Positions 13,099 through 32,559 of a stretch of 64,000 nt of DNA are shown here, piece by piece. Within the stretch, counting starts at the first letter, position 1, and every line of letters starts with the position of its first letter. Made by a program: the position numbers and the translations under genes. Origin of the DNA: Nitrososphaerota archaeon (GTDB lineage: Archaea; Thermoproteota; Nitrososphaeria; Nitrososphaerales; Nitrosopumilaceae); the NCBI GenBank assembly GCA_028866895.1, contig JAGWHF010000004.1:1-64000 (forward strand). Direction: 5' to 3'. The notes below the pieces were generated by a model. It searched no databases, was not told where the DNA came from, and worked only from the letters and a program-made list of their open reading frames with translations.

Positions 13099-13650
13099 TC
13101 AGTCCTTTCTTCGCTTGATTGAAAGGGTCTTCTGTACCTCGTTTATGCTGCTGAGGAACTTTTGTTTGGCGTCATATTCGTCTGTCACCTTTATTACAAT
13201 CTCAGAAGGCGAGAACATCACGTCCTTTACAAGGATCGGGGAGCTTAGGCCAAGCAGTTCGCTAAGTATCTCAAACACGTGGTTGTATTTTGTGTCGTTT
13301 TTGTACCGGAAGAACGTGTTTCCGTCCGCGATCATTGGGTTGGGCTCAAGTGGGATGACAAGTTCGGGCGAGGTGAATTCTGTTATGAAGTTAGCAATGT
13401 CTTCGCTTATTTTTGCGGCAAGTGTCTCTTTCTCCTGAACTAGTTTCTCCCTTGCAGCCTCGAGTTCATGGGTTGCGTCGACGTACTCTTCCCCTATCAT
13501 CTTTGCAAACGTGGATTCTGTTGAAATCTTGAGGGGTATTTCGTGTATCCTGAAGTTTATCGTAGAGAGTTCATCCTCGACGTCTGTCAGCTGCTGCCTG
13601 TTCCGTTTGATCTGGGTTGCGAGTTGTTCCAGGAAGTTAAAGTCTGCCAT
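13099..13650 (-). CDS. coiled-coil protein coupled to the tubulin-like gene
   Basis: 183 residues. Residues 1-85 form heptad-rich coiled coil (FLEQLATQIKRNRQQLTDVE, then LEAAREKLVQEKETLAAKI). Residues 95-183 look globular with a final helical segment. It begins 3 nt after the stop of the tubulin-superfamily gene, so the two are almost certainly one operon and may be translationally coupled. A role as a filament regulator or adaptor is an inference from position only. Confidence 0.75.
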   Translation of the reverse strand: MADFNFLEQLATQIKRNRQQLTDVEDELSTINFRIHEIPLKISTESTFAKMIGEEYVDATHELEAAREKLVQEKETLAAKISEDIANFITEFTSPELVIPLEPNPMIADGNTFFRYKNDTKYNHVFEILSELLGLSSPILVKDVMFSPSEIVIKVTDEYDAKQKFLSSINEVQKTLSIKRRKD

Positions 13651-13653
13651 GCC

Positions 13654-15048
13654 CTACGCGCTGAACTGGTGGACGACGTCCATAAGGCTCTGCTTGAACT
13701 CCTCGGTGGTAAGGCCCCACTTGCCGTACTCTTCTTTGTATCCGTCCCACGAGGCCTCTGCCTCGCTTGCTATCTCTAGTATCTTGGGGCCAATTGCCTT
13801 TGTGTTTACAAGTATTGTAACGTTTGCCTGTTCTGTGTCGAGTATTGGTATCTTTACAAATATCATGCGGGATTCCTCGATATGGAACCTCTCCTTTATC
13901 ATGTTCTTCAGGACATCCCTCTCCTTTGCGTCGAACTCGCCCTTTATCTTTACGAGTGCTACGCAGGAGTCCCTTTGGCCCCCCTTATCGCGTATGTCGT
14001 TTTCGTCTATGTCAAAAAGGATGGCGTCGTTTTTCTTGCGTATGTGTTCTGCTATTACTTCCATTGTGTTGCCCTTGCCTCCCGACATGATGTCCTCACC
14101 CCATTGTTTTGGCTCTGGCACCGCTGGAATGACCCACGGTATGGCAAAGCGCGGCTTCTTGGTTGCAAGCCATGTCCTGTAGTTTGACATGTCCCACTCG
14201 GTCTCCCTTGCAAAGGAGGCAATGAACATGGATACTGCATTGGCAGCAATCAGGTTCATTCCCTTGTAGTCCTTCCAGCCTATCTCGTGTTCCTTTGGCA
14301 AGTCATCTATAATGGACTGCAGTTTGTCCATCTTTTTTTCATGCTTGTGTGCAAGCTCGCGGAGCCTCTTGTTTGAGAACAGGATAGAGCAGTCGCTGAA
14401 TTTTATCTGGTATTCAAGATTCATCACAATGTTGATGGCGGCTGCCTCGTATATTACCGGGTCCCAGCCGAACTCGGGAAGAAGTCCGAATGAGGCTATC
14501 GTTGCATGCTCCTTGGTGTCCTTCTTTATGTACTGCATAAATGCGCTTGCAAAAGAGCTTCCGGTCCCGCCTCCCATAGCAAAAGGTATGGTAAAGCCCC
14601 GGACAGGCTCTGGCGAGAGGCCTGCAAGCTGTTTCTGCATGTCAAACTTTTTTGTAACCTCGTTTGCGAATCTGTTCCTCCCCTCTGCCCAGTTCCTTGC
14701 TGCTCCTCCTGCACCGTGAATCACGTGCTTGTCACGGAGTGCAAAGAGGTCAGGGTATGACTGGAGTATCAGATTCGCTGCCCTCGGGTCAAGGTCTACA
14801 AGGAGGGCACGCGGGATTAGCGGGATCTCGTTTCCACCGTAGGAATTTGGGAAGCGGAGGATCGTGCTGCCATACCTCTTGAGTACGCGTGACTCGTCCT
14901 TCTCGCCCTTCAGCGTGGGCTTGAGCGGGTCTGCCCCGACGTCAATCAAAAGCCTCCGGTACGCCTCTGCCCCTAGACCTATACCGCAATGACCGAAGCA
15001 GGTCATCAGCACAGGTGCTGGTGGGAGGGGCGCGTTAACGGTAGACAA
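13654..15048 (-). CDS. tubulin/FtsZ-superfamily GTPase with tubulin-like motifs
   Basis: 464 residues from TTG at 15048. GTP-binding motifs are in order: T1 loop GHCGIGLG (19-26, the tubulin-type GxCGxxxG form rather than the Gly-run of FtsZ), ALLVDLDP (81-88, like tubulin LVDLEP), GAGGAARNWAEG (112-123, like tubulin GNNWAKG) and the T4 signature GGGTGSS (159-165). A T7-like segment with Asp (WDMSN, about 285-289) and a C-terminal helical end typical of tubulin length follow. The protein is expected to polymerise with GTP. Thaumarchaeota divide with Cdv proteins, so a cytoskeletal rather than divisome role is plausible. It could be the thaumarchaeal FtsZ-like family or an artubulin; a tree is needed to decide. 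It heads a two-gene operon with the coiled-coil gene. Confidence 0.85.
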   Translation of the reverse strand: MSTVNAPLPPAPVLMTCFGHCGIGLGAEAYRRLLIDVGADPLKPTLKGEKDESRVLKRYGSTILRFPNSYGGNEIPLIPRALLVDLDPRAANLILQSYPDLFALRDKHVIHGAGGAARNWAEGRNRFANEVTKKFDMQKQLAGLSPEPVRGFTIPFAMGGGTGSSFASAFMQYIKKDTKEHATIASFGLLPEFGWDPVIYEAAAINIVMNLEYQIKFSDCSILFSNKRLRELAHKHEKKMDKLQSIIDDLPKEHEIGWKDYKGMNLIAANAVSMFIASFARETEWDMSNYRTWLATKKPRFAIPWVIPAVPEPKQWGEDIMSGGKGNTMEVIAEHIRKKNDAILFDIDENDIRDKGGQRDSCVALVKIKGEFDAKERDVLKNMIKERFHIEESRMIFVKIPILDTEQANVTILVNTKAIGPKILEIASEAEASWDGYKEEYGKWGLTTEEFKQSLMDVVHQFSA

Positions 15049-28962: not shown

Positions 28963-32361
<3,399 letters not shown>

Positions 32362-32559
32362 GCTGACCACCCAAGTACCGGACGTGCGGAACAACTAAAG
32401 ATTTGCCTATCATCATGTTTTGCGCAAAGGGCCATACCATACAGTAGAGATACGAATACCATCAATGTTGGATCGCTTTTACGGCATATACCTTAAAAGA
32501 ATTGCGTATCTATCTTCTGTAATTCTGGTATACGTCTGATAAGGTTTACTCATAATGCT

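Follow-up and report, generated by a model that had tools for sequence, protein, structure and literature searches.

Artubulins were named in 2012 from Nitrosoarchaeum (Yutin and Koonin, PMC3349469) and found in Nitrosotenuis in 2013 (PMC3835317). Published analyses placed them near tubulins, apart from CetZ, in 2023 (PMC9871819), while trees of 2026 left their position open (PMC13394414). They have been cited for more than ten years as possible kin of eukaryotic tubulin, and in the literature we found no report of artubulin function or working partners. PMC3349469 and PMC3835317 do not single out the gene downstream of artubulin; among the genes around artubulin, a figure legend in PMC3349469 names a ‘conserved hypothetical protein’, possibly the partner described here, and PMC9871819 remarks in general terms that coiled coils are frequent in genes around archaeal tubulin-like proteins. 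Relative to the literature we found, three points are new: an obligate two-gene module whose conserved partner had not been characterized before, evidence against a Snf7 companion, and a missing catalytic acid at the T7 loop.

Other tubulin-like systems differ from this pair in instructive ways. (i) Asgard AtubA/B, Heim tubulins, and OdinTubulin are the best solved relatives of artubulin by profile and among the best by fold, with ~18–19% identity in structural alignment. In the AtubA/B heterodimers, the block affects just one of the T7 loops (PMC13394414); artubulin usually comes as a single type of subunit with Asn at T7, and its gene partner is a different one. (ii) BtubA/B of Prosthecobacter, with bacterial kinesin light chain, resemble artubulin as a prokaryotic tubulin encoded beside a possible accessory protein. 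They group with eukaryotic alpha/beta tubulins and adjoin each other and a TPR protein (PMC3349469), to which the coiled-coil partner of artubulin is unrelated. (iii) CetZ of haloarchaea likewise belongs to the tubulin superfamily and contributes to cell shape (PMC10606840); it is set apart from artubulins by indels and the C-terminus according to the published description (PMC9871819). (iv) TubZ/PhuZ are characterized by a plasmid or phage location and a TubR-type helix-turn-helix adaptor, neither of which emerged for the artubulin pair from its chromosomal context, the Pfam search, and searches with artubulin in a phage collection and with the partner in a plasmid collection. (v) The short FtsZ of thaumarchaea shares superfamily and genome with artubulin but belongs to the FtsZ group, lacks the T7 loop, and has no partner.

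The window, i.e., the whole stretch of 64,000 nucleotides analyzed here, comes from a Nitrosotalea-like thaumarchaeon (Ca. Nitrosotalea being the closest named relatives among the matches listed), whose 2.26-Mb genome is assembled in 95 contigs with a completeness of 99.7%. The two-gene locus comprises the following features:

13654–15048, minus strand: artubulin gene, tubulin-superfamily GTPase by PF00091, PDB relatives, and fold; 464 aa, TTG start
13099–13650, minus strand: coiled-coil partner gene, predicted helical hairpin plus alpha/beta domain; 183 aa, ATG start
13651–13653, minus strand: intergenic gap of 3 nt between artubulin stop and partner start; the junction reads TAG-GGC-ATG
14971–14994, minus strand: T1 nucleotide loop GHCGIGLG, tubulin type; artubulin residues 19–26
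14560–14574, minus strand: T4 nucleotide loop GGGTG; artubulin residues 159–163
14167–14208, minus strand: T7 loop and start of H8, RETEWDMSNYRTWL; artubulin residues 281–294, by profile alignment with tubulins
14182–14184, minus strand: N289 codon, at the position of the alpha-tubulin catalytic E254
13375–13641, minus strand: partner N-terminal antiparallel helical hairpin; residues 4–92, AlphaFold2 model
13105–13353, minus strand: partner C-terminal alpha/beta domain; residues 100–182, found alone in family f3 genomes

The first-pass annotation had described both reading frames, the coiled-coil gene starting 3 nt past the GTPase stop, and the motifs GxCGxxxG (here GHCGIGLG), ALLVDLDP, NWAEG, and GGGTGSS, all of which are present. 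Both genes are under purifying selection, with dN/dS of ~0.02 for artubulin and ~0.06 for the partner against the nearest relative, from which they differ at third codon positions. The artubulin start codon is TTG (at 15048) in the Nitrosotalea-like genus and in the larger part of the deep clade; that of the partner is mostly ATG, but certain deep-clade members use TTG or GTG. The TTG and ATG starts could yield unequal amounts of the two proteins.

The GTPase matches Pfam PF00091 (3.4e-17) and none of the NCBIfam FtsZ models, including TIGR00065. Searched with a family profile, the PDB returned Asgard tubulins as best matches (5.7e-22), followed by gamma-, beta-, and alpha-tubulins. Profile comparison with alpha-, beta-, and gamma-tubulin gave a probability of 99.4% over the whole length, including the H11–H12 end; the alpha- and beta-tubulin sequences used are identical to PDB entries, and the gamma-tubulin sequence agrees with the stretch from the PDB profile match. 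The AlphaFold2 model is of moderate confidence (mean pLDDT 75.7, pTM 0.83), with three of five models below 60 and a pLDDT of ~58 in the T7 region; in a structural search with it, the best 50 matches were all tubulins (eukaryotic, Asgard, Odin, and Prosthecobacter), aligned over the full length. Together, this moderate-confidence model and the profile alignment place the full tubulin fold, including the C-terminal H11–H12 helices, in artubulin. A maximum-likelihood tree recovered artubulins, including those of Nitrosarchaeum and Nitrosotenuis, as monophyletic (100/99) and split them together with tubulins from FtsZ with a support of 100/100, in a data set that includes E. coli FtsZ and two Asgard rows consisting of GTPase-domain fragments, without CetZ. 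Profile, predicted fold, and tree thus agree with the initial description of a tubulin-type protein lying outside FtsZ. The bearing on tubulin origin claimed there is contested, as neither published trees nor ours settle where artubulins stand with respect to the tubulins of Asgard archaea and eukaryotes; in ours, the artubulin branch is 2.48 changes per column, and the node relating it to tubulin subgroups has a support of 44/72.

The GTPase family itself is not new (PMC3349469, PMC3835317), and by sequence the tubulin of the source genome is a new member of it, 75–95% identical to the other artubulins in its family and ~76–81% identical to those of Nitrosarchaeum and Nitrosotenuis. The Nitrosoarchaeum and Nitrosotenuis artubulins share its family and GTPase motifs and are likewise closer to tubulins than to FtsZ. 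The T1 pattern GH[CA]G[IV]G[LIV]G and the T4 motif GGTG are present in all 74 artubulins examined. The two-gene operon also occurs in Ca. Nitrosotalea devanaterra (L098). A locus labeled as gammaproteobacterial (L115) carries an artubulin, partner, and neighbors of Nitrosotenuis type, and we read it as a mislabeled or mixed assembly, not a transfer. One genome, G456 of family f57 (contigs C69 and C7), encodes two artubulin–partner pairs plus a canonical and a short FtsZ.

In the superfamily, the T7-H8 face contacts the nucleotide of the next subunit and serves subunit stacking; FtsZ, like alpha-tubulin, has a catalytic acid at T7, in the motif N-x-D-F-x-D, whereas artubulin has E-W-D-M-S-N. 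By profile alignment, D286 pairs with alpha-tubulin D251, and N289 with alpha-tubulin E254. Catalysis in alpha-tubulin depends on E254, while K254 of beta-tubulin blocks hydrolysis (PMC13394414). The catalytic-acid position is Asn in 73 of 74 artubulins, the same fraction that carries RETEWDMSN, and RETEWDMSNYRTWL is among the longest near-invariant stretches of the family, as judged by invariant columns. Such strong conservation of T7-H8 is as expected of a longitudinal contact. Since the T7 region is weakly modeled (pLDDT ~58), the case for a missing acid rests on alignment and invariance, and on these grounds canonical GTP hydrolysis in an artubulin homopolymer is doubtful.

Besides artubulin, the source genome yielded a single superfamily member, the short FtsZ-like protein (317 aa; L002:1021–1974 on contig C1; TIGR00065, 1.1e-15), which lacks the T7 loop entirely when aligned with canonical FtsZ. 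Its counterparts in several related genomes also lack the loop. The FtsZ of N. maritimus reportedly fails to form polymers (PMC3684127), which the absence of the T7 loop would explain. Because the short FtsZ has lost T7 and artubulin has kept it, artubulin is, on the strength of its sequence, the better candidate filament former of the superfamily in these cells, and it is pointed out here as such.

The partner is modeled with high confidence by AlphaFold2 (mean pLDDT 92.1, pTM 0.79). The coiled coil noted in the initial description appears as an antiparallel helical hairpin (residues 4–51 and 60–92), followed by a C-terminal alpha/beta domain that had escaped that description. A fold search against PDB structures yielded only helical-hairpin look-alikes (best E = 0.14), a profile search of PDB sequences only coiled coils that were designed or matched by chance, and the Pfam search no match to a helix-turn-helix family. 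Two candidate identities were rejected. As a Snf7/ESCRT-III protein, the partner has no match to PF03357, whereas a true Snf7 neighbor (L128) scores 9.3e-10; as a KEOPS Pcc1 protein, suggested by the beta-alpha-beta-beta-alpha order of its C-terminal domain, it reaches an hhalign probability of only 0.1–1.7% with PF09341.

Relatives of the partner also exist in genomes without artubulin. In family f2 (L194, L196–L198), full-length relatives with coiled coil and C-terminal domain lie between what we take to be a radical-SAM-like gene, which comes before, and a small conserved gene. In family f3 (L199–L208, L211, L212), the C-terminal domain occurs alone, in a stand-alone gene of ~130 aa with no Pfam family match, mostly in a conserved core-gene cluster near genes that, from their sequences, are presumably Nep1-, S19e-, and PDCD5-like. 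Thus, the domain is more widespread than artubulin, with which it pairs in one of its uses. That the partner can serve in a different role weighs against the device proposed below.

Pairing was followed across genomes, as the first-pass annotation had called for. Genome contigs scanned for artubulin contained 80 loci, and a partner profile search found the partner directly downstream in all 76 where the contig continues, including loci at which partner identity has fallen to 24–33%. The gap between the genes is 2–18 nt, and they never overlap. In a survey of 151 genomes of the family, artubulin occurs in 55 and the partner in 57, the two extras being remnants only; in 400 genomes of the class, the partner accompanies artubulin in 87 of 87. 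An apparent separation of the genes in G106 is a contig break instead, the sequence ending 48 nt after artubulin and resuming 58 nt before the partner, and in G554 the partner sits at an extreme contig end, uninformative on pairing. The pair persists into a deep set of loci (L138–L140, L143–L161) in which artubulin is 51–58% identical to the window protein, and it is retained in at least five unrelated gene neighborhoods, while other neighbors change between genera and deep clades. TPR and SHOCT-like genes lie upstream of it in Nitrosotalea and an Nre gene in Nitrosotenuis; judging by sequence, we take the upstream genes in the deep clade to be L7Ae-like and other core genes, and those around the pair in an intermediate clade to be transporter and thioredoxin-reductase-like genes. 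Chance falls far short of explaining such conservation of the pair. Neither outcome that the first-pass annotation named as refuting, a firm position within canonical FtsZ or orthologues lacking the coiled-coil neighbor, was observed.

In the deep clade only, a conserved gene of ~312 aa lies 34–59 nt downstream of the pair (L145:9946–10881, with equivalents in 17 loci), ahead of genes that are presumably NDK-like and IF-2-like; it is a possible third component there. The IF-2-like gene of L145 (11594–14953) carries an apparent intein right after GHVDSGK (CVSGDTPIQLADG...), which its counterparts in L152 and L157 lack.

We consider it reasonably probable that artubulin and its dedicated partner form one accessory device, a stacking filament with poor or partner-assisted hydrolysis. 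Both proteins would be made from one transcript. Artubulin would bind GTP within the tubulin fold and stack head to tail via its conserved T7-H8 face; with Asn at T7, the resulting filament would probably hydrolyze GTP poorly and be long-lived, except where another residue or the partner makes up for the acid. Through its C-terminal domain or hairpin, the partner would bind artubulin and may anchor, bundle, or regulate it. Such a device may serve cell shape, polarity, or the positioning of cell contents. A bolder version, which we regard as speculative and rather unlikely, is a non-Asgard filament in which artubulin has no GTP hydrolysis of its own and the partner either contributes the group needed for catalysis or acts on a GTP-locked polymer by severing or anchoring it; if true, it would represent a mode of tubulin polymer not known from FtsZ, CetZ, TubZ, or microtubules.

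Co-loss of the two genes occurred in three lineages, with partner remnants carrying stops or a frameshift. In the Nitrosotalea-like G067, the flanks are in place, artubulin is gone, and partner codons ~140–183 remain, with stops; in G505 (family f61), the partner persists as a pseudogene and no artubulin is left; in the Nitrosarchaeum-like G081, the flanks and the adjacent Snf7 gene have stayed intact, artubulin has disappeared, and a broken remnant is what remains of the partner. The notion that the gene order merely reflects common descent, the two genes being functionally unconnected, draws on the genes being together in every genome, as chance neighbors can be over short times, yet the three joint losses and the retention of the pair down to 51–58% artubulin identity, while its surroundings changed, make it extremely improbable. 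G081 also bears on the 2012 proposal that artubulin acts with ESCRT-III (Snf7/CdvB) in cell division, the coiled-coil gene being incidental. Snf7 is indeed directly upstream in Nitrosarchaeum (PMC3349469; L128, 9.3e-10; gene cluster 39; G014), but it adjoins the pair in that genus only, other genera having different upstream genes, and it has outlived artubulin where the partner has not. This argues for the partner, and not ESCRT-III, as the functional companion; the natural experiment, with Snf7 kept and the pair lost, argues against the published link, qualifies the predicted division module, and leaves the proposal distinctly unlikely. The window artubulin, from a different genus, has no Snf7 in its surroundings, and the sole match in the genome is on another contig; the absence of a nearby Snf7 was noted before for N. 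uzonensis (PMC3835317). A Snf7 neighbor is therefore not a necessary feature of the artubulin family. The initial description had set the locus against a Cdv/ESCRT background, to which the Snf7/CdvB-type gene elsewhere in the source genome conforms. Cdv is the division machine of these archaea. Together with the absence of artubulin from many relatives and its repeated loss, the separate Snf7/CdvB-type gene makes an accessory role more likely than one in division.

Other readings keep the pair and change what it does. Artubulin may be a scaffold that binds GTP but does not polymerize, the partner serving as its effector, as the absent T7 acid could suggest; thaumarchaeal FtsZ offers a superfamily precedent of lost polymerization (PMC3684127). 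However, the T7-H8 stacking face is among the most conserved parts of artubulin, as opposed to its deletion in the short FtsZ, and we think a scaffold improbable. A segregation system resembling TubZRC, with artubulin as motor and the partner as DNA adaptor, would fit the two-gene tubulin/adaptor layout, the repeated loss, and the varied neighborhoods; it is very unlikely given the chromosomal context, the partner's lack of any helix-turn-helix family or structural match, and the searches in which artubulin was unmatched in a phage collection and the partner in a plasmid collection. Viral contig matches at 27–28% identity proved to be phage structural proteins that share AARNWAE by chance. The partner could also act on artubulin only during folding, in a chaperone-like manner. 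The accessory filament remains our preferred reading. The present analysis names an obligate gene partner for artubulin in a pair followed deeper into Nitrososphaeria, and it makes a sharp prediction, namely poor GTP hydrolysis owing to the Asn in place of the T7 acid.

Elsewhere in the window, the minus strand of 28963–32394 encodes a protein of 1143 aa, predicted to be secreted, in which Ig-like segments recur and an unbroken run of very many glutamines precedes a short C-terminal tail.
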